From an uncultured Oscillospiraceae bacterium (GTDB taxonomy: Bacteria > Bacillota > Clostridia > Oscillospirales > Oscillospiraceae): DNA of 33,613 nt. The stretch is taken from positions 1 through 33,613 of the forward strand of contig CALWXF010000036.1 of assembly GCA_944385445.1 (NCBI GenBank). Reading direction: 5' to 3'. Below the pieces are notes generated by a model. It did no database searches, had not been told where the DNA came from, and saw nothing but the letters and a program-made list of their open reading frames with translations. Made by a program: the position numbers and the translations under genes. Positions within the stretch are counted from its first letter, which is position 1. Each line of letters opens with the position of its first letter. Positions 857 to 20,345 of this stretch are shown here, piece after piece.

Positions 857-1606
857 TCAAAAAAGTCTAAAGACACGACCATATCCCACGGATTTCTCGT
901 TACATAGCTTTGTAGAAAACATTGCATTTGGAGAATATCCGTCCCAAGGTTTATTTGAGTGATGCAGTAGTATTTTTATTCCCTGATAAATACTACCCTG
1001 ACTGATCAACAAAATATCTTTCCCCTTATATTCACGATTAACTGTGTGAATTAATTTCGAACAGCGAACAAACACATCACCCCAACTGTCACCATCTTTA
1101 GATTTTACAAAAATATTGTGCGCATACTCTCTCTGTAAGAAAATGTATAAATTATCTTCATCAAGTGCTTCTAATCGTTTATCTTCCCACACACCATTGT
1201 TAATACCTATCATATAGGTACACTCTATCACTGGCAAATGATGTGTAAACTGCGACTGCAAAATGCGAAATGTATCCATTGTGCGTTTCAACGGTGCCAG
1301 TAGTATCACGTCTGGCATATGATTATTTACTTCATGAGAAGCCTCTTTAATTTCTTCGATTCCACCTTTTGAAAGGATTGCATTACTGGAAGTGTTGCTC
1401 ATAAATTCATTGCGCTCCACGCCAACCGTTTTTCCATGTCGCAGAAGTTTTAAGCTTTTGACCTTACAGCTTGGAGTAAAAAAGCTAATGATGATATGAC
1501 CACTGAATGGGTTAACAAGCCACCCGTAGCGTAACATAGACAAAGCAATTATAATGCGCTCATGCCAAGTGTTAGTCTCATCCCGCTGAAGGTATTTCAT
1601 AGCCAT
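857..1606 (-). CDS. Histidine phosphatase superfamily protein with altered second catalytic histidine
   Basis: This 249-residue protein carries the LLRHGKT signature (RHG at about 56-58) of the histidine phosphatase/phosphoglycerate mutase superfamily. R108 in the APLKRT segment is a candidate phosphate-binding Arg, and an acidic stretch NNGVWEDKRLEAL follows. The strand that normally ends in S-H-G reads ISQGS (about 201-205), so the second core histidine is a glutamine. There is also an unusual N-terminal extension of about 50 residues. The start codon overlaps the stop of the upstream Nudix gene in a TAATG arrangement, so the two are translationally coupled. It is the last gene of a five-gene operon. 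It could be an active phosphatase with a variant acid, or a catalytically weakened ligand-binding protein. Confidence 0.7.
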   Translation of the reverse strand: MAMKYLQRDETNTWHERIIIALSMLRYGWLVNPFSGHIIISFFTPSCKVKSLKLLRHGKTVGVERNEFMSNTSSNAILSKGGIEEIKEASHEVNNHMPDVILLAPLKRTMDTFRILQSQFTHHLPVIECTYMIGINNGVWEDKRLEALDEDNLYIFLQREYAHNIFVKSKDGDSWGDVFVRCSKLIHTVNREYKGKDILLISQGSIYQGIKILLHHSNKPWDGYSPNAMFSTKLCNEKSVGYGRVFRLF

Positions 1607-2193
1607 TATCCCCCAATCCTATTCAAAATAAAACGAATAATCTCATAGGCAGTTCTTGCTTCTGAAACCGATCCATTCAAACAAAGTTCTAATGCAGTGG
1701 AAAAATCCACCCATCGACTTTGGATAAATTCATACTCTGTTTTTTGAATGGATGTACTTGTATGGTCAATATACTGATCTACCAAAAAATAATGCAAATC
1801 CCATTCAACGGTCAACCCACAGTGAGAAACGTTTAGGAGAGTATAGTTCTTAACCTCTATGTCGACCTCTTCGAGCAACTCTCTTTTCAATGCATGGATT
1901 ATATCATCAGTAATGGGAGTACCTAGCTGTGTTTTCGCAAAGTATTCCTCATTGGTGTCGAATACCTTTCCACCTGGTAATCGGTAATCCCACCCATCCA
2001 GCTCATAGCGATACTCACAAGCAAGTAGTAGTTTATTATCATTAATAACTAATGCACGTATGCCAGGTGGCCTGCGAGCAACTTCGAGTTCCAGGCGTTT
2101 GAATACAGTCTGATTATTAACCTGAAACTCCACTTCTTTTGTTCTTTGTACAATTTGGAACAGTTTCCCGTCAAATTTAACAACATCACTCAT
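1606..2193 (-). CDS. Nudix hydrolase, ADP-ribose pyrophosphatase-like, with interrupted Nudix box
   Basis: This 195-residue protein has the Nudix pattern: LPGGKVF at about 72-78 followed by ALKRELLEEVDI at 101-112, with R104, E105, E108 and E109 as the metal-binding core. The gap between the glycine and the RELLEE helix is about 15 residues longer than in the classical 23-residue box, and the usual glycine near its end is Asp. Nudix enzymes cleave nucleoside diphosphates linked to another group, such as ADP-ribose or dinucleotides. The substrate here cannot be read from sequence. The start overlaps the PP-loop gene by 8 bases and has a strong GGAGG ribosome site. It lies in an operon with a nucleotide kinase-like protein, a PP-loop ATPase and a phosphatase-like protein. 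Confidence 0.75.
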   Translation of the reverse strand: MSDVVKFDGKLFQIVQRTKEVEFQVNNQTVFKRLELEVARRPPGIRALVINDNKLLLACEYRYELDGWDYRLPGGKVFDTNEEYFAKTQLGTPITDDIIHALKRELLEEVDIEVKNYTLLNVSHCGLTVEWDLHYFLVDQYIDHTSTSIQKTEYEFIQSRWVDFSTALELCLNGSVSEARTAYEIIRFILNRIGG

Positions 2194-2926
2194 GCAAACA
2201 CCTCCGGATGACCTGATCTAGCTCCTCATATTGAATTTCTAACCTCTTAGTATAGCATTGAAGTAGATATTCACCTACCGGAGAAACAAATGAGTCGAGA
2301 TATTTTCGTAATTTCGCCAGGTTTCCTGGTTCCTCCAGAGAAACTCCTGACATATTCCCAGAAAGAATGCATTTTACATCATTAATTGTAGATATATGAG
2401 AATAATCTTTTATCTCCTCATCAACTATAAGTGTATCTTCCGTATCGATAAATGGCTGGATTAAGGCAATCCCGTGTCGACTGAACAAAGAACGAAACAA
2501 ACTGATGGTGTCCTGTTGCTGATTTGCTTTGAGTTTTCCTTTATGCGAATAGCGTTCCCCAGTAATGATACCCTCACATTTTCTCTCAAGATAAAGCGGT
2601 ATTCGCAGCAAGTGTGTAAACAGATGGCACATGACGCATGGTGTATAAATGCCGTACTCTCGAAATAGCAAGTTTGAGTATTTTGCGCATATATAATTCC
2701 ACAGCAGTTCATTATGCAAAACTACAGTTTCCTCTACAGAAACACCATACACTTGACCACATTTTGTAAGATAATCAATCGACCTAGTATATGAGGAGAA
2801 ATCTCCGTATTCTGTTCCAGTATATACAACAGTGGGAATGATAGTAGCCGGACCCCGCTCTCGCATAATTTTATGCACTGCTGCAATGCTATCTTTGCCT
2901 GCAATCTCTGCGATATATGTTTTCAT
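2186..2926 (-). CDS. PP-loop (adenine nucleotide alpha-hydrolase) ATPase with CxxC pair
   Basis: This 246-residue protein starts with a strand followed by IAGKDS (8-13), a variant of the SGGKDS PP-loop that binds ATP and releases pyrophosphate while adenylating a substrate. A CVMC pair at 97-100 and a later Cys at 186 could bind a metal or Fe-S centre, as in some tRNA-thiolating PP-loop enzymes. ITGERYSHKGK at 121-131 is a conserved-looking charged segment. The family covers tRNA thiolases, QueC-type enzymes and 3'-phosphoadenylylsulfate reductases, and no exact subgroup is recognised here. ATGA overlap with the upstream membrane-protein gene and an 8-base overlap with the Nudix gene indicate one transcript. 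A role in making or modifying a nucleotide or nucleic acid is inferred. Confidence 0.65.
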   Translation of the reverse strand: MKTYIAEIAGKDSIAAVHKIMRERGPATIIPTVVYTGTEYGDFSSYTRSIDYLTKCGQVYGVSVEETVVLHNELLWNYICAKYSNLLFREYGIYTPCVMCHLFTHLLRIPLYLERKCEGIITGERYSHKGKLKANQQQDTISLFRSLFSRHGIALIQPFIDTEDTLIVDEEIKDYSHISTINDVKCILSGNMSGVSLEEPGNLAKLRKYLDSFVSPVGEYLLQCYTKRLEIQYEELDQVIRRCLHE

Positions 2927-3903
2927 ACCTCTTCTCCCTCTCCTCCTGCGCCAAAAGACATTAAAACTTCCTTATAACGCTTTATAAGATTTTGGCAAAG
3001 GTTTTCAAATTCACATTTTTCTCTCCCACAACTGTCACATTGACTAATTCCCTGTGCATCACAGTTCAAACAGAATTGCGATTGACATTTTTTTGTTTCA
3101 ATTAATTTATATAATTCTTGCGGCTTAATAGTTGACTTATTTTCCCACAAATCATCAAAATACTTGCACATGAATCCTGCAATGTTTTGTTCTCCATGCA
3201 TAATTTTGTACATCGGGAGGCTAAGACCTTCCCGCTTCCTATCGTAGTTAGATAGCAAAACACAGGTACTTTGATCAGCTCGTTCTTTTTCAAAAATATA
3301 AAATCTCCATCTTGCGTGTGTACCGCGATAAAACCTAACATTAATAGATAGATGTTCTGAGTCGTACTCTCTTATCTCATCCAGGAATTGATACCACGAC
3401 TCCAAAAAGGTTTTGTCATCCATCTCGTTATGCGCTTCTCGGCGTTCCTTGACATGGTCATCTTGATAACAAGGTAAAACCAGCAGGATTTGTACGTTAA
3501 CTGATTTCTCAGTTGTCTTCCCTTTTCCATCCTTTAAATCACTCAACTCTTTTACCAATCCGTTGGGTTTTCTGTGATTAAGTAATTCTTTACCTCTTGT
3601 CACTTTTATCTTTATATTCTGAGACGTCTCAAAGTTTTTTTTGAGTTGCTTTTTCAGTCCCTTGTCTTGCCATAAACCACGAATCTTCCCGATGTTCCAT
3701 AAATCAAAACGAGAACGCATCCACCCCTCCCAGATTAGAGAGCTAATATATACACATAGTATAGTAATTGCATATCCTCCCAAGATAATCCCGGCTTTCA
3801 CTCCAATAGCTTCTATACCCATAATATCTGGAATAAAAGAGATTACCACACATATCGCACCGGTTATTAGTGCAGTAAGTAACGCATTTTTGGGATCCTT
3901 CAT
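2923..3903 (-). CDS. Two-TM membrane protein with cytosolic DUF5919-like domain and Cys-rich tail
   Basis: I chose the ATG at 3903, preceded by AAGGAG; an in-frame GTG at 3912 is the alternative. Two hydrophobic helices near the N-terminus (about 6-25 and 35-59) should anchor it, with roughly 260 residues in the cytosol. The middle region has the layout VNVQILLVLP ... LSINVRFYRGTHARWRFYIFEKE ... VLLSNYD ... YFDDLWENK. This resembles the PLD-like/DUF5919 domain found in conflict-system proteins; that match is from memory and tentative. The tail (about 273-303) has seven cysteines in CxxC-type spacing, suggesting a zinc-binding module. It is the second gene of the operon and overlaps the PP-loop gene. 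A membrane-located sensor or effector is an inference. Confidence 0.6.
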   Translation of the reverse strand: MKDPKNALLTALITGAICVVISFIPDIMGIEAIGVKAGIILGGYAITILCVYISSLIWEGWMRSRFDLWNIGKIRGLWQDKGLKKQLKKNFETSQNIKIKVTRGKELLNHRKPNGLVKELSDLKDGKGKTTEKSVNVQILLVLPCYQDDHVKERREAHNEMDDKTFLESWYQFLDEIREYDSEHLSINVRFYRGTHARWRFYIFEKERADQSTCVLLSNYDRKREGLSLPMYKIMHGEQNIAGFMCKYFDDLWENKSTIKPQELYKLIETKKCQSQFCLNCDAQGISQCDSCGREKCEFENLCQNLIKRYKEVLMSFGAGGEGEEV

Positions 3904-3950
3904 TTTACCCACTCCTTTTTTAAGTCTATTTGTAGCGTAATCTTAAAACA

Positions 3951-4508
3951 TCACAGTCTCGTTATTGAATGCAACAAAGATTCCACAATTTCTTTCTCTT
4001 GGTTCAAATATTGACCCAAACTCATGTTAAAGGTAAATTTTATATCTGCGCGCTGTCTGAGTTGTTCATAGTCAAATAGCTCCTCTTCTCTATCCATTCG
4101 CTTTTTTAATTCTAAGAGATTTGCTTCGTCTTTTTCTTCTGCTCGTTTCAACATGCGTAGAAAACGAATCTTTTCATCTGCAAAAACAAAAACAAGAATC
4201 ATATTAAGTCGACTCTTTAAGTGTAAATATTCTTCCATTGTTCGAATTCCAGTGATAATAATATCCTGATTCTCAGTCAAGCAGATTTGGCTAACGATTT
4301 GTTTTGGTGTGAAATCACGTCCATAAACCGCATCACACTCTTCTCGTATCTTCTGCAGGTTTTCTCTTTTTGGTGGAAGCCCTCGTTCCTTTGCGATATT
4401 ACGGATAATATCACCCATGCTATACTTTTGAAATCCTTTGTAACGACAGAAACCATCTGCCAACGTATCTTGACCGGACCCACAATATGCAAATGTTCCA
4501 ATTACCAT
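3951..4508 (-). CDS. P-loop nucleotide kinase-like protein lacking the Walker A lysine
   Basis: Start chosen at the ATG at 4508 after GAGGG; an in-frame GTG lies three codons upstream. The N-terminus VIGTFAYCGSGQDTLAD matches the P-loop of the dephospho-CoA kinase/deoxynucleotide monophosphate kinase-like group, which usually reads G-x4-GK-D-T, but the Walker A lysine is Gln (about residue 13). Next come a YSMGDIIR substrate-helix motif, a DIIITGIRT strand resembling Walker B, and a basic RFLRMLKRAEEKD lid-like segment. Length (185 residues) fits small nucleotide kinases. It is the first gene of the five-gene operon, 47 bases before the membrane-protein gene. It may bind a nucleotide without phosphorylating it efficiently. 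Confidence 0.65.
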   Translation of the reverse strand: MVIGTFAYCGSGQDTLADGFCRYKGFQKYSMGDIIRNIAKERGLPPKRENLQKIREECDAVYGRDFTPKQIVSQICLTENQDIIITGIRTMEEYLHLKSRLNMILVFVFADEKIRFLRMLKRAEEKDEANLLELKKRMDREEELFDYEQLRQRADIKFTFNMSLGQYLNQEKEIVESLLHSITRL

Positions 4509-4546
4509 ATTGTTCACCCTCTATTCCATATTTCGCGACTCAAAAT

Positions 4547-4694: not shown

Positions 4695-7073
4695 CTATTG
4701 AGCTCCATTAAGCCTGAACCGATCATTTTTGACAAGTTCTTGTGCCCAATTTCCTATTTTTTGAGCGGCTTCTTTCGGAAAGTATGACTTTATATGGTCA
4801 GGATATAGACAATACATAAAGCATAATATATCTTTACATGTCCGCATTTTTTCCTCAGTTGAAATGAATTGATGGAAATTGAGATCATCCTGCACTCCGT
4901 ATATGCGCCCTTGAAAATGACTTTCTCCATTGAGCACCAAACGATACATAAGGTTTTCAAAGTAGACAGATCGATCTCCTAAACTTTTTACAACCTTAGG
5001 GTCAGACGACACACCTGTAATCCCCGTACCATATACGAACGTAGAAAAGGCTTCTAGTGAACGGCGCATCGCATTGCCGATTGTCAGTTCCAACCCTTCT
5101 GTTTCGCCTGTAGCATATTGAAAAATCATTCCTAACAATTCTCGATACTCATTATATGTTTTCTTTTTAGATTCACATATGTGAAGACTTCTTCCAGATA
5201 ATTCGAAGAAATTACTTTTTGCCGGTCTGTCGCTCTTCTTAAATGTTTGCTCTATTTCCCCAGCTATCTTTTGTAAATCAAAAAATGTCGATAAATCATG
5301 TGTCAAAAACAGGATCTTACTGCTAGGGTTTCCACCCATGATATTCTGTGCCTGAAATCTTAGAAACGAACTTATGCCGACTTTATTTTCAAAGTCAAAA
5401 CTTGAGATAGGATCATCAACAACCACCAACTCCTCGTCTTGGTATAGTTTCCCAATGTCCTGGTTCGACAATATTTCCGTGAAGAAATAACACAACGCAA
5501 TGATATTTCGCTCTCCTAAGGAAATATTTTTGGGTTTAACACTTTTCCCATTGGACTTCAAATAATACTTATTATCCTTCAGCTCAATTGAGAGTCGATC
5601 TCTGGAGAAAAAAACATATTCTAGGGCACTGTTTATGCTTTCGATCGCCAGCCCTACATCAGATTTTTTCTGTTCAAGCTCCTTAAGGTGATTTCGAATA
5701 TCTCCCACTCTTCTTTGCGTATCCAGTAGGTCAGCTTGCGCAATCTGCTTTTCCCTTATCTGTTTTTTGTAATCGCGGTACATTTGTTGGATTTGCAAAT
5801 GCGCAATTTTTTTATTGATTAAAATCAAGTCTTGCACTATTGTCTTTCTTCTTCGCACCGCATCTACAAACGCCCGTCGTCTGTGCTCAAGATCACGTAG
5901 AAGATGGTTCAGTTCTCTGATACTGCTGTTCAAACCCAGGGGTGCTATATCCAGCGGATTATAAATTCCGCTTAGTTTTTGCTCCAGCGCAGACCTATAC
6001 CGCTCAATCAACATCTCGCAATTCTTAATCTGTTGATGGATTTTTCTCACTAATTCGGCATCTAATTCTGAAAAATTAGAATAGTCTTCACTGATTTTTG
6101 GAAAAGACACCGCTTGTAATTCAGCCTTGTGTTTTTCAACATCTTTATTTAGAACTCTGTCGATACTGTCAATGAGGCCTTGTCGATATTGTGCATCAAT
6201 CTTTCGAAAGCAATATGGACAAAATGTAGTATTTTCATTGCTAAAGTCCCTTTTCGCTGCCTCTACAAATGATTGCCTACCATCTTTAATCAGCTTCAGA
6301 ATAAGAGATTCATTCTTCGTTAACACAGGTTTTTCAACCACCTTTGCCAGCAAAGAGCATAGATTCTCTTCAAAGCTATCTGCAAAAGGGACTACACAGA
6401 TTGGATCTGGGTAGCTTTCCGTGGCATCAGCCACTTTATCAAGTAGGCTCTTAGTTTCATCAAATGTTTGTTGTAATTGTGCCACATTCTCAGGGACAGA
6501 CAGCTCTCCTATTTCTTTAATAATCCCCTCTGTCACCTTGGAGCTGATTTTATTTCCCTTAATCGACGAATCTATTGTTGCCCATTGGCCCTGCAAAGTC
6601 TTTCTAATGCGTGATAAATGATATTCCGGACTAATAGTACTACTTTTTTGAGCAAAGTCTGCTAGTTTGTTCTCAGCAACTGTATGCTCTTTTTCTGCCG
6701 ATGTTAGCAATTGCATATAGTGATCTATCTCTGCCTGAATATCTACCTGGCTTCCTAAAAGGATAATAGTTCCTAACCCATCCTCATCTATTTTCACATT
6801 CTCATCTATGTATTTTTCATCGAACACAAATACTTTACCTTCAGGCAACAAGGATACAACCGTATTAGACCGATCAATTAAAGAGACAGACAAATCTCCA
6901 TAAATATCTCCCGAGGCAATACGTGAGAATCCCTCTGAAATTGTACTTTTCCCGCTTCCATTTTTGCCATACACAACAGCAATTCTGTCACCATCTTTCG
7001 GAAAAAAGGAAAGCTCTGTTTCTTCTAAAAAGCACCGACCACTAATTGAAATGCCTTTTACCCTCTCAAACAT
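4695..7073 (-). CDS. RloC/PrrC-like ATPase with zinc hook and candidate anticodon-nuclease triad
   Basis: This 792-residue SMC-like ABC ATPase of the AAA_13 type has Walker A GKNGSGKS at 36-43, signature SLGERN at 518-523, Walker B VVVDDPISSFD about 550-560 and THD at 591-593. A long coiled-coil segment contains CPYC at 285-288, like the zinc hook of RloC and Rad50. The C-terminal domain has R670-x3-E674 and then NGESH with H719. This is the RxxxE...H layout of the tRNA-anticodon nuclease site of PrrC and RloC, though the E-to-H spacing differs from PrrC. In those proteins the nuclease is held silent by the ATPase and by a Type I restriction complex or DNA-damage signals. The gene starts 35 bases after hsdR, consistent with that linkage. 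Nuclease activity is inferred. Confidence 0.75.
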   Translation of the reverse strand: MFERVKGISISGRCFLEETELSFFPKDGDRIAVVYGKNGSGKSTISEGFSRIASGDIYGDLSVSLIDRSNTVVSLLPEGKVFVFDEKYIDENVKIDEDGLGTIILLGSQVDIQAEIDHYMQLLTSAEKEHTVAENKLADFAQKSSTISPEYHLSRIRKTLQGQWATIDSSIKGNKISSKVTEGIIKEIGELSVPENVAQLQQTFDETKSLLDKVADATESYPDPICVVPFADSFEENLCSLLAKVVEKPVLTKNESLILKLIKDGRQSFVEAAKRDFSNENTTFCPYCFRKIDAQYRQGLIDSIDRVLNKDVEKHKAELQAVSFPKISEDYSNFSELDAELVRKIHQQIKNCEMLIERYRSALEQKLSGIYNPLDIAPLGLNSSIRELNHLLRDLEHRRRAFVDAVRRRKTIVQDLILINKKIAHLQIQQMYRDYKKQIREKQIAQADLLDTQRRVGDIRNHLKELEQKKSDVGLAIESINSALEYVFFSRDRLSIELKDNKYYLKSNGKSVKPKNISLGERNIIALCYFFTEILSNQDIGKLYQDEELVVVDDPISSFDFENKVGISSFLRFQAQNIMGGNPSSKILFLTHDLSTFFDLQKIAGEIEQTFKKSDRPAKSNFFELSGRSLHICESKKKTYNEYRELLGMIFQYATGETEGLELTIGNAMRRSLEAFSTFVYGTGITGVSSDPKVVKSLGDRSVYFENLMYRLVLNGESHFQGRIYGVQDDLNFHQFISTEEKMRTCKDILCFMYCLYPDHIKSYFPKEAAQKIGNWAQELVKNDRFRLNGAQ

Positions 7074-7108
7074 AGCCCAACCACCTCATTTTTTATTGAT
7101 CCTTCCTG

Positions 7109-10102
7109 TCATGCCCTCAACCTCTCATACACCACTGTCCCCACTGTCTCCATGACCTGCCGCATCATATCCGGCTCAGAGAACATCTTCACAAAGAAGT
7201 CCTCATTCTGCTCATACCGAGCAGCAGCCATATTGGGAAAGTCTTTTTCAAAGAGCAGCATGAAAGTCTTACGGTCGTTGTTCTGGGCGTAGCTGTGCCA
7301 CTTGTCCTGGGCGGCATAGTCGTTCTCCATCTGGAGCAGGACCTTGTCCATCTCGGTAAAGTTGGTACCATACTTCTCGTTGATCTTGTCAATGATAACC
7401 GTCAGGGGGTCACGCTTCTTTTCTCTGCGTCCAGCCTCGCCGGTGATGGGCCGGAATCCCTCCGGGGTGCTCTCTAGTTGGATTTCTCCCTCGAAGTTCT
7501 TCTCCAGGCGGTAGTACTCCAGCAGCACCTTATCATCCACATAGACCTTGTCCCGTCCGCCCTTGGGCAGCATGGTATAGAGGAACTTGGCATACACGCT
7601 GAACTTGTGGATGTCCTTATCAAACAGGCGGCACACCTGGGTGATAAAGGCATAGATACGGTTGAATCGAGCCAGAGTCGACTTGAACAGGTCCTGCTTC
7701 TCCTCGTCCAGGGCGTCAAAGCGATCCAGTGCCGGACGGATGGTGCCCTGGAGCCGTCCCATATCTCCCATCCCCTGTTCCTTGACCGCATAGAAAATCT
7801 CGGCAAAGTGGTCGATCTCCATCTGCTGATAGACTCGGAATTCATCCAGCGTATTTTTCAGGTCATACACCACGTTGGGGTCGGTCTCCTCCTCCAAAAC
7901 CGTCTCCTCATAGTACGGCTCGAAGGCTTTGCGGATGTCCTCAGCGGAGTTGACGAAGTCCAACACAAAGGTGTCCTTCTTCCCTCTCATGGTGCGGTTC
8001 AGGCGAGACAGGGTCTGGACCGCCTTCACGCCGCTCAGCTTCTTATCCACAAACATGGTGTGCAGCAGAGGCTCGTCGAAGCCGGTCTGGTACTTCTCTG
8101 CCACAATGAGCATACCGAATTCATCGGTATGGAACGCCTCTGGCAGCGCCTTTTCCTTGATGGTCTCGCCGGATTTGGTCTTATTCAGCTTTTCCTCCGT
8201 ATAGGGCACTCCGTTGTCGTCCACCTCACCGGAGAAGGCCACCAGCACGTCCAGGTCGTTATACCCCTTCTCCTGGATTTGACGCTTGAACTCTAACAGA
8301 TAGCGCACTGCATGGAGCCGAGAAGGTGTCACGATCATGGCCTTGGCCTTCCCGCCAATTTTGTGCCGGGTGACGCTGCGGAACTGCTCCAACATGATGG
8401 CAGTTTTCTGGGAGATGTTATGGGGATGCAGCGTCTCAAACTGACGAATGGCACGCACACCGGCGGTGGTGTCCAGCTCAGGATCATCGGGAATGGCTTT
8501 GGCAATCTTATAGTACATATTGTAGGTCATGTAGTTTTGCAGCACATCCAGAATAAAGCCTTCCTCAATGGCCTGGCGCATGGAGTACACATGGAAAGGA
8601 TGGTATTTTCCATGTTCGTCCCGCTGGCCGAACATTTGCAGGGTCTTATCCTTGGGGGTGGCTGTAAAGGCAAAGAAGGACAGATTTTCATGAACGCCCT
8701 GGGCAGCCAGCTCATCCAACAGCTTGTCCTCGTCGTCTTTGCGCTTGGCCTCCTCCTCATATTCCTGCTGGGCGTACTCCTCCAGAACCTTCTCGGTGTC
8801 TGCCAACGCCCGTTTCAGCTTGCGGGCGGCGTCACCGGTCTGAGAGGAGTGGGCCTCGTCCACAATAACTGCAAACCGCTTATTGCCGGAACGCACCTCT
8901 TTGTAGATGACCGGGAACTTCTGGAGGGTGGTGATGATGATGCCCGTCCCGGCCTCGATGGCCTCCCGGAGCTGCTGGGCGTTCTTGTCGATCTTCTGCA
9001 CCACTCCCGCCACATGGTCGAACTGATAGACCGTGTTTTGCAGCTGGCTGTCCAGCACCCGGCGGTCGGTAACGATGATGACAGACTGAAAAATCTTCTC
9101 ATCGTGGCAGTCGTGCAAACCGCTGAGGCGATGGGCCAACCAGGCAATGGAGTTGGACTTGCCGGAGCCTGCACTGTGCTGAATGAGATAGTTTTTGCCA
9201 GAGCCGTGGGCCTTCACATCCTGCAGCAGTTTCGTCACCACATCCAGCTGATGGTACCGGGGAAAGATCATCCGCTCGGACTTCACTTCCCCAGTCTTTT
9301 CATCCCGGATCACCTGTAAATGCAGGTATTTATGTAGGATCTCCAGCAAGCGATCCTTGCACAGCACATTCTCCCACAGGTAGGCGGTGTCGTAGCCGTC
9401 CGGGTTGACGGGGTTTCCCTTGCCTCCCACTTTTCCAGCTCCATTGCTACCCTGGTTGAAGGGCAAGAAATAGGTGTTGGCCCCCTCCAACCGGGTGGTC
9501 ATATACACATTGGTCAGGTCCACAGCGAAGTGAACCAGCACCCGGTTTTTGAATTGGAAAATGGCATCTTTCCCGGCACGGTCAAACTTGTATTGGTTGA
9601 TGGCGTTGGAGGTGTCCTGCCCGGTGAACTGACACTTCAACTCCATGGATACCACAGGAATGCCGTTGAGGAACAGGACGATATCAATGCTGTTCTCGTT
9701 GCTCAGGGAATAGTGGAGCTGCCGGGTGCAGTGGAGGATGTTGGCGGCATACTGGGCCTGGCTTGTCTCGTTGATGGAGGTCTCCGGCTTCCAGAACACG
9801 GCCCGGAACTTGATGCCACGGTCAGTGAAGCCCTGGCGCAGCACTTTCAGCAGCCCCACCAGTTTCACTTCCCGGCAAAACCGGTCAATGAGCTGCCGCT
9901 CGCTGTCTGCTCCGTAGATCTTCTCAAACCGTTCCCACTGCTTTGGCTGGCTGGTGCGGATGAAAGAGAGGAAGGTACCGGTATCCAGCGTCTTCTCCCG
10001 GTTGAAGGCGGCGGGGCTACCTTTCTGGTAGCCACCATGGATCAAGAGGTATTCCTCGATATCCTGCTCGAAGCGTTCTTCTTTTACACTAAACTCTGAC
10101 AT
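7109..10102 (-). CDS. hsdR: Type I restriction enzyme R subunit
   Basis: This 997-residue protein is the motor-nuclease subunit of a Type I restriction-modification complex. The N-terminal PD-(D/E)XK nuclease shows IDIVLFLNGIPVVSMELK (D140, E154, K156). The superfamily 2 helicase has AGSGKS at 311-316 (motif I) and VDEAH at 414-418 (motif II), followed by SFFAFTATP (motif III) and later TLSRLNR. Length is typical for the family. It begins two bases after the TIR gene and is followed by the RloC-like gene, all on the minus strand. Its GC content is clearly higher than that of the TIR gene and the hsdS variable regions on either side, so the operon is a mosaic. Confidence 0.95.
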   Translation of the reverse strand: MSEFSVKEERFEQDIEEYLLIHGGYQKGSPAAFNREKTLDTGTFLSFIRTSQPKQWERFEKIYGADSERQLIDRFCREVKLVGLLKVLRQGFTDRGIKFRAVFWKPETSINETSQAQYAANILHCTRQLHYSLSNENSIDIVLFLNGIPVVSMELKCQFTGQDTSNAINQYKFDRAGKDAIFQFKNRVLVHFAVDLTNVYMTTRLEGANTYFLPFNQGSNGAGKVGGKGNPVNPDGYDTAYLWENVLCKDRLLEILHKYLHLQVIRDEKTGEVKSERMIFPRYHQLDVVTKLLQDVKAHGSGKNYLIQHSAGSGKSNSIAWLAHRLSGLHDCHDEKIFQSVIIVTDRRVLDSQLQNTVYQFDHVAGVVQKIDKNAQQLREAIEAGTGIIITTLQKFPVIYKEVRSGNKRFAVIVDEAHSSQTGDAARKLKRALADTEKVLEEYAQQEYEEEAKRKDDEDKLLDELAAQGVHENLSFFAFTATPKDKTLQMFGQRDEHGKYHPFHVYSMRQAIEEGFILDVLQNYMTYNMYYKIAKAIPDDPELDTTAGVRAIRQFETLHPHNISQKTAIMLEQFRSVTRHKIGGKAKAMIVTPSRLHAVRYLLEFKRQIQEKGYNDLDVLVAFSGEVDDNGVPYTEEKLNKTKSGETIKEKALPEAFHTDEFGMLIVAEKYQTGFDEPLLHTMFVDKKLSGVKAVQTLSRLNRTMRGKKDTFVLDFVNSAEDIRKAFEPYYEETVLEEETDPNVVYDLKNTLDEFRVYQQMEIDHFAEIFYAVKEQGMGDMGRLQGTIRPALDRFDALDEEKQDLFKSTLARFNRIYAFITQVCRLFDKDIHKFSVYAKFLYTMLPKGGRDKVYVDDKVLLEYYRLEKNFEGEIQLESTPEGFRPITGEAGRREKKRDPLTVIIDKINEKYGTNFTEMDKVLLQMENDYAAQDKWHSYAQNNDRKTFMLLFEKDFPNMAAARYEQNEDFFVKMFSEPDMMRQVMETVGTVVYERLRA

Positions 10103-10104
10103 AA

Positions 10105-10890
10105 TTACACTCTTTCAATAGCCAATGGTTGGTATTTTCCTGTCTCAGCATTACAAAGAACAAACACACAAATTTCCTGAAGTTTACTCAAATCGTTATC
10201 CTTAAACTCTACAACAAACGGGAACCCTGGCTTAAGAACTCGATGCAATGTAATCCGATGTGCATAATATACGGTTCCATCAGGATATGTTGCTGTTCCC
10301 GATGCAGAGGTTGTAGTAATTTCACTTGTTACATTTATAGACTGCCTATTGAATTCATTTTTACTAATAAAAACAAATTGGGGATTTTGTTCAGCAAAAT
10401 ACAGAGCCTGAATGGTGAATGCAGCTGTTGAATTGTCTTTAACAGAAAACAACACCTTGCAATTCTGTACATCTTCAAGTGGTGTATAGCAGTTTTCTAA
10501 TTTTGCAACTCTTTTCATCTTTTCAATTGAGCCGTCCATTCCCTCTCCATACAAGTCAATATACAACATATCAGCAAGTATTACAGGTAGGTTGCAATCC
10601 GCAATTCTGACAACGACAAATTTGAGATTATTGTTTACCGCTCGATTCAATGCCGAACGCCATTCCAAACCAACCATACTACTAGCTAGGCTGTTCGGCG
10701 ATAATAAGAGAAAGAAGGTATCGAAGTCGGCCAACCCGTCGTTCATCTTTCCAACTATGCTATCACCTGGTTGTATCGACCATGCATCATAGAAAATATT
10801 GTTTCGCCCAAATTCTAGTTCCAGCCTACGTGCAATAGTATCTACCAGCAGAGCATCTTTGTGATTGTAGCTAATAAACAACTTTGCCAT
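10105..10890 (-). CDS. TIR domain protein encoded between hsdS and hsdR
   Basis: The N-terminal ~130 residues form a TIR domain: KLFISYNHKDA (strand A and box 1), IFYDAWSIQPGDSI, FFLLLSPNSLASS and GLEWRSALNRA. E76 sits where bacterial TIR NAD-cleaving enzymes carry their catalytic glutamate. The C-terminal half (about 130-261) is beta-rich with no recognised family and may be a sensor or binding domain. No transmembrane helix is visible. The gene lies three bases after hsdS and two before hsdR, so it is co-expressed with the restriction genes. NAD depletion as a response is inferred from the family. The base composition is AT-rich compared with hsdR and hsdM, suggesting later insertion into the operon. 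Confidence 0.85.
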   Translation of the reverse strand: MAKLFISYNHKDALLVDTIARRLELEFGRNNIFYDAWSIQPGDSIVGKMNDGLADFDTFFLLLSPNSLASSMVGLEWRSALNRAVNNNLKFVVVRIADCNLPVILADMLYIDLYGEGMDGSIEKMKRVAKLENCYTPLEDVQNCKVLFSVKDNSTAAFTIQALYFAEQNPQFVFISKNEFNRQSINVTSEITTTSASGTATYPDGTVYYAHRITLHRVLKPGFPFVVEFKDNDLSKLQEICVFVLCNAETGKYQPLAIERV

Positions 10891-15270: not shown

Positions 15271-15792
15271 CTAGATATCGCATGCATAGTCTTTTGAGAA
15301 AATTTGGTTATCTCTATTGAGCAGCACGATTCTCACCCCCTTCTTACATGCATATCTGAGCGTATACGCCGTCCCACCTGTATTTCTAGTGCAATACGCC
15401 ACACAGACAGAGCTATGATTCACCAGATGGCGGTTGCGCTTCTGCATACAGCCTGGAGAATACTTTTCCTGGAGATACACAACCTTATCTGCCTGGGTCA
15501 AAATGCGCTCATAGTGCCGGATGTCCTCCCCTTTCCATCCCCGGGTCTGATCTCGGCATGGCAGCACCATAATCAATCTGATGTGCGGGAACTCCTTTTT
15601 GAGCTGTAACACAACGTCCGCCGCCATTAAATCGAACCCTCTGGCTCCCCCGCTACCGAAATATCGAATCCCTTTTCCGATTAGAGATCGCAATATGCGC
15701 TCCAACTGGCGTTTTATTTCCTGCTTCTCGTCTTGTGCAATGTCCCGGTGGCCGGTGAAGCAACAGGTCTGTGCTCTCATATTCTTCTGCAT
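15271..15792 (-). CDS. SLOG superfamily nucleotide-binding protein (YpsA/DUF1273-like)
   Basis: Start ATG at 15792 follows a strong AAAGGAGG. The 173-residue Rossmann-like protein has TCCFTGHRD at the N-terminus, FGSGGARGFDLMAADVVL as the glycine-rich nucleotide-binding segment, and a later NHSSVCVAYC ... GGTAYTLRYA strand-helix pair. All are typical of the DUF1273/YpsA branch of the SLOG superfamily. SLOG proteins bind nucleotides or nucleotide-derived signals and recur in bacterial conflict systems, but the ligand here is unknown. It diverges from a small XRE regulator, with two matching operator-like palindromes between them. Confidence 0.75.
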   Translation of the reverse strand: MQKNMRAQTCCFTGHRDIAQDEKQEIKRQLERILRSLIGKGIRYFGSGGARGFDLMAADVVLQLKKEFPHIRLIMVLPCRDQTRGWKGEDIRHYERILTQADKVVYLQEKYSPGCMQKRNRHLVNHSSVCVAYCTRNTGGTAYTLRYACKKGVRIVLLNRDNQIFSKDYACDI

Positions 15793-15811
15793 CAGATAAT
15801 CCTCCTTTTGT

Positions 15812-15885
15812 TTGCACCTATATAAGTGCAATTCTAATCCGTGCATAGAATAAAATCAACACTGGATGCACCACTATAAGTGCAA
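15812..15885. promoter_or_regulatory. Pair of TGCAC-N8-GTGCA operators between SLOG and XRE genes
   Basis: Two inverted repeats share the same arms and an 8-base spacer: TTGCAC-N8-GTGCAA at 15812-15831 and TGCAC-N8-GTGCA at 15867-15884. Both spacers end in CTATAA or TATATAA-like sequence. Their centres are about 54 bases apart, roughly five helical turns. The divergently encoded XRE protein is the likely binder and could repress both genes. Confidence 0.6.
15831..15859 (-). promoter_or_regulatory. Promoter of the SLOG gene
   Basis: TTGATT (minus strand, 15854-15859) and TAGAAT (15831-15836) are separated by 17 bases and lie 39 bases upstream of the start codon. One operator palindrome abuts the -10 box and the other lies upstream of the -35 box. 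Confidence 0.55.
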
Positions 15886-18945: not shown

Positions 18946-19264
18946 AATTTCTACCTCCTAACTGGCAGTTGGTGATCTGGATCACTTGCTCCAGCAATGC
19001 TTGGCACTGTAACAAAAGTTCTCCCCACTGGTCCGGCCCATTGACCTGTTGGAGAAGCATTCGCAAGCGCTTCAGTTCCACCGCCAAGCGATCACTTTCA
19101 AATTTCCCGGCTCGGAGTTCAATATACTGCTCTAACATAGATTGAATCATATACTGGTTCTTAGGCAGTCCAGTTATTTTAATTCTCTCTTCCAACCGAT
19201 AGTACTCCTCCATGGTCACTCGAAAGCACACGGTCTTTTCTCTGGTCCGATTCTTTGTTTCCAT
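18935..19264 (-). CDS. Ribbon-helix-helix mobilisation/accessory protein
   Basis: Start ATG at 19264 follows AGGAGGAGG; the frame is open further upstream inside the integrase gene. The 109-residue product begins METKNRTREKTVCFRVTMEEYYRLEERI, an RHH-type fold with KTVCFRVT as the likely DNA-contacting strand. It continues with a helical C-terminal half rich in Leu and Gln. Such proteins act as relaxosome accessories (MobC-like) or small regulators in mobilisable elements. Its first 86 bases lie inside the 3' end of the integrase gene in another frame, so the two are tightly coupled. Confidence 0.7.
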   Translation of the reverse strand: METKNRTREKTVCFRVTMEEYYRLEERIKITGLPKNQYMIQSMLEQYIELRAGKFESDRLAVELKRLRMLLQQVNGPDQWGELLLQCQALLEQVIQITNCQLGGRNYAG

Positions 19265-20345
19265 TCGCTTTTTCCTCCTCCTGAGACGAGTTTTTATAAA
19301 ATGCATCCAACCGATCGGCCAACCGCTCCTGTTTGTTCGGGTACAAATGGGAGTACGTGTTCAGTGTGGTCTCAATATTTTCATGGCCCAGACGTTCTGC
19401 AATTTCCTTAGGAGAAACCCCCATTTCCACCAATAGGCTGGCGTGAGAGTGCCTGAGGTCGTGAATGCGGATTCTCTTGACTCCACTGAGTTTGACCCCC
19501 CGCAGCATCTCTTTCTCTAAAAATGTCTTTGCAATGGGGCAGACCCTATCTCCAGGATTGGGATGGTAGAGACTGTCCATATAGTCTCTAAGATCTTCCA
19601 CCAGGAAGGCTGGCAGATTTACTGTACGATTACTCTTGGGTGTTTTTGGTAGTGTGATTACATCTCGTCCCTTTAACCGCTGGTAGGATTTGTTGATGGT
19701 CATAGTCTTGTGCTCCAAATCCACATCTGCAAAGGTAAGCGCCAATAACTCTCCAATCCGAATGCCGGTCCAAAAAAGAATTTGAAACGACATCCAGGAG
19801 ACCCGCTTATCCATCAAGCAATCCGAAAAGTCTTGAAATTCTTCTTTCGTCCAGATTTTCATCTCATCAGCTTTGGCCTTACCCATACTTCCAGCTTTCT
19901 TACAAGGATTGCTGCTCAACTCATAATAGCGTACTGCGTAGTTAAACAAGGAACTGAGCTGGTTGTTGATAGTTTTGAGATAGGTTTGAGAGTATCCCTG
20001 TTGAATCAGACCGTTTTGCCAGGCCCGAATATTTGCCACACTAATCTCATTGAGACGCTTTTCACCAAAAAACGGGATTAGTTTATCCTGGATGATATAT
20101 TCCTTATTGATCATGGTATGTTCTCTCAGTCGATGGCGCATATCGTCCAGGTACAACGCCACGAAGTCCCGAAACGGCATATTGCAACTATTACTTTTTT
20201 GAAGCAAGAACGTCCGAAGCCACTCCTCCGCTTCTCTTTTTGTTTGGAATCCACGCTTTGTGGATTTGCGATTCTTCCCCGTCCAGTCTTTGTAGCGATA
20301 TTGGATGAGCCACTTCCCTGTTTTCGGATCCTTTTCTGCTTTCAT
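19179..20345 (-). CDS. Tyrosine recombinase/integrase
   Basis: This 388-residue integrase has an N-terminal arm-binding domain (KWLIQYRYKDWTGKNRK), a SAM-like core-binding domain (about 55-150) and a catalytic domain. The catalytic residues are R196 (TGIRIGELL), H295 and R298 (HDLRHS), H321 (LGHENIETT) and Y331 (NTYSHLYP). It drives integration and excision, most likely at the guaA 3' end just beyond the repressor gene. Its start overlaps the excisionase stop by four bases. The C-terminal ~40 residues after the catalytic Tyr run into the RHH gene in another frame, a compact arrangement. Confidence 0.95.
   Translation of the reverse strand: MKAEKDPKTGKWLIQYRYKDWTGKNRKSTKRGFQTKREAEEWLRTFLLQKSNSCNMPFRDFVALYLDDMRHRLREHTMINKEYIIQDKLIPFFGEKRLNEISVANIRAWQNGLIQQGYSQTYLKTINNQLSSLFNYAVRYYELSSNPCKKAGSMGKAKADEMKIWTKEEFQDFSDCLMDKRVSWMSFQILFWTGIRIGELLALTFADVDLEHKTMTINKSYQRLKGRDVITLPKTPKSNRTVNLPAFLVEDLRDYMDSLYHPNPGDRVCPIAKTFLEKEMLRGVKLSGVKRIRIHDLRHSHASLLVEMGVSPKEIAERLGHENIETTLNTYSHLYPNKQERLADRLDAFYKNSSQEEEKANGNKESDQRKDRVLSSDHGGVLSVGREN

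Follow-up and report, generated by a model that had tools for sequence, protein, structure and literature searches.

What might five tightly packed minus-strand genes at the end of a bacterial contig be doing together? The question is raised by a 33,613-nt stretch of DNA from an uncultured Oscillospiraceae bacterium (contig C36, CALWXF010000036.1, of assembly GCA_944385445.1, 2.15 Mb in 37 contigs), which at its full length is called the window below. The original prediction described an operon there for a kinase-like protein, a membrane protein, a PP-loop ATPase, a Nudix hydrolase and a histidine phosphatase-like protein, nearly all genes overlapping. We found the five open reading frames (ORFs) at 857-4517, and three of the four junctions indeed overlap (+38, -4, -8 and -1 bases from gene 1 to gene 5, counted on the longest ORFs; Table 1). 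For genes 1 and 2 the ATG codons at 4508 and 3903 are more likely starts than the GTG codons at 4517 and 3912, because their ribosome-binding sites are well placed and they fit the starts of the second copy described below. Pfam backs the Nudix (2.4e-8), histidine phosphatase (3.6e-16) and P-loop kinase (AAA_17, 3e-10) assignments; the proteins of genes 3 and 2 had no Pfam match that reached the cut-off. We tentatively favour the reading that this is a mobile, self-contained operon which would make a sulfur-modified nucleotide, nucleoside or base and which carries putative nucleotide-sensing parts; we regard this as quite possible rather than established.

A second complete copy, with identical gene order and strand, lies at locus L069 in genome G1289, from another family of the same order. 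It was located by a search with gene 4 among 325 genomes of the order, four of which matched, the own genome included (G1289 at 58% identity, the others at 30% and 32%). Protein identities between the two copies are 60, 54, 63, 57 and 65% for genes 1 to 5 (gene 4 ranging over 57-58%). No internal stops are present in any of the five genes in either copy, the nonsynonymous divergence (dN) is 0.25-0.39, and for gene 1 the synonymous divergence (dS) is 2.1, at a ratio of 0.13; for the other four genes dS could not be computed. The operon DNA aligns in two blocks at 65-71% identity, while the flanks of the copies gave no blastn match and the flanking ORFs of the window no tblastn match at an expectation value (E) of 1e-3. 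In the window the unit closes a mobile element at the 3' end of guaA (21410), and it is the last recognisable unit ahead of the contig end; a second copy of the guaA end was not detected within the window. In L069 a serine recombinase gene that reads as two ORFs (5955-7505) stands directly before gene 1, its first ORF matching Resolvase and Recombinase, and the locus holds phage DNA polymerase, endonuclease and helicase genes (PHROGs). The guanine plus cytosine (GC) content of the operon is 38% in the window, with 47% at 4.7-14.2 kb and 60% at 21.4-33.6 kb, and 33% in L069, with 59% in the first 5.9 kb of that locus. Within the genus of G1289, gene 4 found a match in one of the 18 sampled genomes, G1289 itself. 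Because the second copy has the same order, unrelated flanks, a mobile context and a patchy distribution in its genus, we conclude, as far as a comparison of sequences reaches, that the five genes travel as one conserved and mobile unit.

Searches with the remaining genes yielded more distant relatives. Gene 3 matched in 5 of 391 genomes of the class (the own genome and four at 23-30% identity), gene 1 in 6 of 398 genomes of the phylum (the own and five at 24-29%), and gene 5 in 27 of 321 genomes of the class (its own and 26 more, of which three reach 32-33% along almost the whole protein); gene 2 matched its own genome alone among 295 genomes of the order. These samples overlap, and G1289 was seemingly present in the gene 4 samples only (325 order and 18 genus genomes). 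When the five genes were compared with 65 loci, some of them overlapping, more than one gene was found only in L069 and L036, which are the same place. Phage records held no relatives of genes 1, 2 and 3, plasmids none of genes 2, 3, 4 and 5 and a single weak match to gene 1 (E 1e-3, 26.6% identity), and IMG/VR gave no matches for genes 2, 3, 4 and 5 or for alignments A1 and A3. The conserved co-occurrence that the original prediction had named as a check is represented by one further full set, a single instance among 2,000 genome searches (several queries, overlapping samples), and because of this count the five-gene system is either rare or poorly sampled.

An indication of a chemistry comes from gene 3, whose PP-loop part belongs to a small family with no Pfam or NCBIfam match. 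Its relatives are found in L069 (63% identity), L002 (47-49%), L008 and L009 (27-28%), and together with the window protein they form the five-sequence alignment A4. Exactly three columns of A4 consist of cysteine throughout (C97, C100 and C186), with 84-86 residues between the second and the third. The family has sequence features of [4Fe-4S] PP-loop sulfurtransferases, namely a PP-loop motif, the corresponding fold (from a weak model) and a CXXC pair with one more cysteine some 77-90 positions further along. The cluster ligands are Cys142, 145 and 233 in NcsA (spacing 88, PMC10067955) and Cys92, 95 and 172 in Thermotoga LarE (spacing 77, PMC9283937); the NcsA/TtuA/TtcA and LarE proteins resemble gene 3 in motif and cysteines, and their substrates are tRNA or a nickel-pincer precursor. 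Because this signature of sulfur inserters is present in all five sequences, gene 3 likely encodes a [4Fe-4S] sulfur-inserting PP-loop enzyme, and thiolation is the likely core reaction of the operon. In hhalign the gene 3 family matched the PP-loop protein of L011 at 93% (E 2.6e-7) with the three cysteines aligned, compared with 0.1% for a Nudix control and 0.7% for a GMP synthase control. The L010 counterpart of the L011 protein matches Pfam ThiI (1.8e-8), and the neighbour of the L010 gene matches 2-thiour_desulf (3e-6, below the cut-off). In both loci, from two genera, the CXXC-type PP-loop gene and its 2-thiouracil-desulfurase-like neighbour are adjacent or overlapping (L010:5632-6845, L011:6004-7223; a weak resemblance, families tested in L010), possibly as a thiolation/desulfuration pair.

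The surroundings of the other gene 3 relatives differ. In L002 (5744-7126), which among PP-loop relatives from outside the operon is nearest to gene 3 and was the only hit when genome contigs were scanned with that gene, the PP-loop part is fused to DUF6125; a profile including this protein (A2) was a poor query, matching by its DUF6125 part alone in 5 non-own genomes of 250 searched. In L008 and L009 the relatives adjoin a gene for a phosphoglycerate-mutase-like metalloenzyme. At L009:7226-11811 the PP-loop relative and the apgM-like gene stand just ahead of larE, larB and larC, an arrangement which hints that the chemistry of nickel-pincer-type cofactors may include an additional step.

Gene 1 resembles nucleotide kinases in fold while having lost a key residue. 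Its protein matches UPF0200 SSO1041 among PDB sequences (1.2e-7, and 3e-9 for a two-sequence profile, with GSGK opposite GSGQ). The Walker A lysine of a functional P-loop nucleotide kinase is absent from both copies, and because of this loss the sequence suggests binding rather than phosphotransfer. In phage-type relatives of gene 1 all 8 tblastn rows show the lysine; the rows stand for four places, two overlapping loci covering each; these loci contain none of genes 2-5, and the neighbouring genes are presumably dUTPase, thymidylate-synthase-like and methylase genes. In L021 (5696-7085) and L026 (5277-6476) the lysine is replaced by cysteine (GSGCS). In L021 a deaminase stretch has a match to the NCBIfam model of the anti-phage dCTP deaminase at E 6.6e-24, below the cut-off, and L026, which also has a kinase-like part, was judged deaminase-like by eye. 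We count these lysine-less relatives in favour of the sensor reading of gene 1. PMC10511110, searched for mention of a kinase part in a deaminase defence protein, contained none.

Gene 2 has its sole recognisable relative in L069 (54% identical). Its two predicted transmembrane helices occur in both copies, and all seven cysteines of its C-terminus (276, 281, 284, 292, 295, 300 and 306, numbered from the GTG at 3912) are kept in L069. Pfam showed no match above the cut-off, nothing matched in PADLOC, NCBIfam, PHROGs or among PDB sequences, and an AlphaFold2 model was discarded (one sequence, mean pLDDT 43.6; pLDDT, predicted local distance difference test).

In gene 4 the glutamates of the Nudix motif (R/K)ELLEE are retained in both copies. 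Gene 5 has the RHG motif and is recognisable over nearly its full length at 32-33% identity in L070, L071 and L072, which like the window and L069 carry glutamine at the position of the second catalytic histidine; the first-aligned PDB relative reads SH where the window has SQG. Among the 22 distinct loci that could be read by tblastn this position is histidine in 15, glutamine in 5 and leucine in 1 (L058), and is not covered in 1; eight further loci of the gene 5 class search are absent from this reading. One of the five glutamine readings, that of L044, was an alignment error: the sequence there is SHQG, with the histidine present. The three distant glutamine-type relatives (L070:6454-7749, L071:5629-7923, L072:7068-9459) adjoin alike nucleotidyltransferase genes in polysaccharide clusters, and a pyrophosphatase-like gene lies near those of L071 and L072. 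The nucleotidyltransferase of L071, the locus in which the families were tested, matches CTP_transf_like, with NMN adenylyltransferase models below the cut-off.

Known operons offer a comparison. According to PMC7994395, tgsABCDEF of coagulase-negative staphylococci, plasmid-borne in one strain, encodes a cysteine desulfurase, a TtuA-like PP-loop protein, a Nudix protein, an EmrE-like protein, a second Nudix protein and an HAD phosphatase, and its reactions are described by the authors as lacking biochemical confirmation. The present operon likewise joins a PP-loop protein, a Nudix protein (gene 4, the Nudix gene typical of 6-thioguanine operons), a phosphatase fold and a membrane protein, whereas tgs has a desulfurase, two Nudix proteins, an HAD instead of a histidine phosphatase, EmrE-like efflux and, in its published gene table, no kinase-like gene. 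In Erwinia amylovora the ycf operon encodes the PP-loop ATPase YcfA of 6-thioguanine formation (PMC6225789), the Nudix protein YcfB and YcfC, related to pyridoxal phosphate (PLP)-dependent transferases (PMC6225789, PMC7994395, PMC5663808). An AlphaFold2 model of gene 3 found YcfA as its best fold match: all 14 Foldseek matches with E < 0.001 are YcfA chains, at a template modelling score of about 0.46, followed by TtuA-type proteins, MnmA, argininosuccinate synthase and NAD synthetase. We treat this as a lead; unlike the fold, the sequence of gene 3 gave no match to YcfA in a search of PDB sequences. Because a cysteine desulfurase and an EmrE-like exporter are absent, the operon is not a member of the tgs/ycf type; by analogy it may work like them, with a kinase-fold protein added. 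The anti-phage dCTP deaminases (PADLOC dCTPase, NCBIfam NF041025) share the kinase-like part with gene 1 but carry a deaminase part, for which there is no equivalent in the present operon. In PADLOC no system matches the set, the only matches being to single genes (dCTPase 4.5e-7, by gene 1; PDC-S07 2.3e-4, PDC-M13A 0.014), and in literature searches limited to open-licence PubMed Central papers the titles and opening parts of abstracts that came up describe neither the five-gene set nor a sulfur-based antiviral nucleotide of bacteria, which agrees with the original view that this is not a named defence system.

From these features we infer the following course. Gene 3 would activate a nucleotide-type substrate with ATP and insert sulfur held on the [4Fe-4S] cluster of its three cysteines. 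The product would be a nucleotide, nucleoside or base modified with sulfur that a host cysteine desulfurase or free sulfide supplies. The Nudix protein would cleave the pyrophosphate form and gene 5 would remove or bind the remaining phosphate, similar to what has been suggested for the tgs Nudix proteins and phosphatase. The most likely task of gene 1, without the catalytic lysine, and gene 2 would be to sense or bind nucleotides and to control the enzymes or fix their location, the membrane protein perhaps as a responder, as had been suggested. The product would probably harm competing phages or bacteria, or serve as an alarm nucleotide, and as to purpose the setting favours conflict over metabolic cargo. 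A fuller version, in which an anti-phage or inter-element system answers infection with a thiolated nucleotide that is made by the Fe-S PP-loop enzyme, tuned in its phosphorylation by the Nudix and phosphatase-fold proteins, and sensed and gated by the lysine-less kinase-fold protein and the membrane Cys-rich protein, is, taken as a whole, unlikely.

Viperin-type chain terminators and nucleotide depletion are known conflict chemistries of mobile elements. If our reading is true, sulfur-modified nucleotides would join the chemistry carried by such elements for conflict, and the compact operon would lend itself to the discovery of a new thionucleotide. Even as metabolic cargo it would point to a PP-loop family unrecognised by Pfam and NCBIfam, and to a subclade of histidine phosphatases in which glutamine takes the second catalytic position.

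Several results weigh against the synthesis of a thiolated nucleotide for conflict. When the window protein, with its eight cysteines, was shuffled 20,000 times, the CXXC...C pattern arose in 5.4% of the trials (0.4-0.5% for the L008 and L009 proteins), so that the weight of the pattern rests on conservation. In hhalign gene 3 showed no relation to one LarE, a member of a known sulfur-inserter family (0.06%), and a kinship with LarE is not supported; the method can miss remote kin, since the PP-loop proteins also include LarE and GMP synthase. The fold match to YcfA comes from a weak model (two sequences, mean pLDDT 53.9), its 14 hits are one protein at 10-12% identity, and with the A4 profile YcfA was not found among PDB sequences at E <= 1. 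The L002 PP-loop gene lies without the other four genes nearby, and because of the phosphoglycerate-mutase-like genes in L008 and L009 and the lar genes in L009 the substrate of gene 3 may be a cofactor. Phosphatase activity of gene 5 is doubtful because the second catalytic histidine is lost. A PLP-dependent cysteine desulfurase-like gene is not among the five genes of either copy, nor is a multi-transmembrane exporter (no Pfam transporter match above the cut-off), and the phage defence role, though plausible, is putative.

The most serious alternative is that the operon is metabolic cargo, for making or handling a cofactor or salvage metabolite that contains sulfur, in a nickel-pincer-like pathway or in thionucleotide recycling. 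It would account for the PP-loop relative ahead of larE, larB and larC in L009, for the fusion to DUF6125 in L002 away from the other four genes and for the phosphatase relatives in polysaccharide clusters, which have a nucleotidyltransferase gene as neighbour (tested in L071 only), but it sits poorly with the placement of both copies in mobile elements (with restriction, TIR and PrrC-like genes in the one, a recombinase and phage genes in the other) and with the patchiness within one genus, and we consider it rather unlikely. A distinctly lower probability is given to the model of the original prediction, a nucleotide signal made by the kinase and the PP-loop protein, removed by the Nudix protein and the phosphatase and read by the membrane protein, with no sulfur chemistry. 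Gene content, setting and the two transmembrane segments of gene 2 agree with it; it is opposed by the missing Walker A lysine in both copies and by the cysteine set of sulfur inserters in the PP-loop protein. Its idea of synthesis followed by removal gains a chemistry, as gene 3 looks like a [4Fe-4S] sulfur inserter, and loses its kinase, as gene 1 with glutamine for lysine is not expected to transfer phosphate in the normal way; the phosphatase role, too, does not stand as written, given that gene 5 belongs to the subclade with glutamine for the second catalytic histidine.

Less probable again, and in our view quite improbable, is a modification of macromolecules by tRNA or DNA thiolation in the manner of TtcA or DndC, with the other genes in control. 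The ThiI match in L010 speaks for it, as does the three-cysteine-cluster PP-loop protein that phosphorothioation systems also possess according to PMC10853773, but Pfam and NCBIfam recognised no DndA, DndD, DndE, tRNA-binding or DNA-binding domain in the five proteins, and the Nudix and phosphatase folds would suit small molecules better. That the genes are chance neighbours on one mobile element without joint function we hold to be extremely improbable: there is one further copy only, the sole place among the 65 loci with more than one of the genes, but it has the same genes in the same order and on the same strand at 54-65% identity between unrelated flanks. Production of a sulfur-modified nucleotide, nucleoside or base by the operon remains our tentative preference.

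Table 1. Features of the five-gene operon and of its mobile element, in window coordinates.
Feature	Position	Strand	Remarks
Gene 1, UPF0200/AdkA-like P-loop nucleotide-kinase-fold protein	3951..4508	-	185 aa from ATG 4508; ORF opens at GTG 4517
Degenerate Walker A motif GSGQDT, gene 1	4464..4481	-	lysine replaced by Q in both copies
Gene 2, two-transmembrane protein with a cytosolic part of no recognised family and a Cys-rich C-terminus	2923..3903	-	326 aa from ATG 3903; ORF opens at GTG 3912
Two predicted transmembrane helices, gene 2	3730..3891	-	Kyte-Doolittle 19-residue windows > 1.6, both copies
Cys-rich C-terminus, gene 2	2995..3087	-	seven Cys in 31 residues, suggestive of metal binding
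Gene 3, PP-loop ATP-pyrophosphatase fold, predicted [4Fe-4S] sulfurtransferase	2186..2926	-	246 aa
PP-loop motif AGKDS, gene 3	2888..2902	-	[SA]G[KR]DS in 5/5 sequences (A4)
CXXC pair C97, C100, predicted cluster site, gene 3	2627..2638	-	invariant in 5/5
C186, predicted third cluster cysteine, gene 3	2369..2371	-	86 residues past C100
Gene 4, Nudix hydrolase with insertion within the Nudix box	1606..2193	-	195 aa; Pfam NUDIX 2.4e-8
Gene 5, protein of the branch 1 histidine-phosphatase fold, extended at the N-terminus	857..1606	-	249 aa; Pfam His_Phos_1 3.6e-16
Q203 at second catalytic His position (SQG), gene 5	998..1000	-	Q in window, L069, L070, L071, L072
YpsA-family SLOG gene	15271-15846		same mobile element
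Tyrosine integrase	19179-20345

The remainder of the mobile element bears out the defence-gene setting that had been described for the window, with type I restriction genes, a TIR gene, an AAA_13 gene, the integrase and mobilisation genes. NikA-like, AAA_25 and Mob_Pre genes adjoin the 3' end of guaA, and we take the AAA_25 gene to be RepA-like. In the type I restriction system the TIR gene (10105-10890) has the specificity gene on one side and the restriction gene on the other. The AAA_13 gene (4695-7073) is matched in PADLOC by PDC-S06 and weakly by PrrC; it was considered as a member of the unit and dropped, L069 having the recombinase at that position. Beyond the operon a short ORF (291-518), perhaps a remnant, resembles what we take to be the end of a DUF1016-type nuclease.

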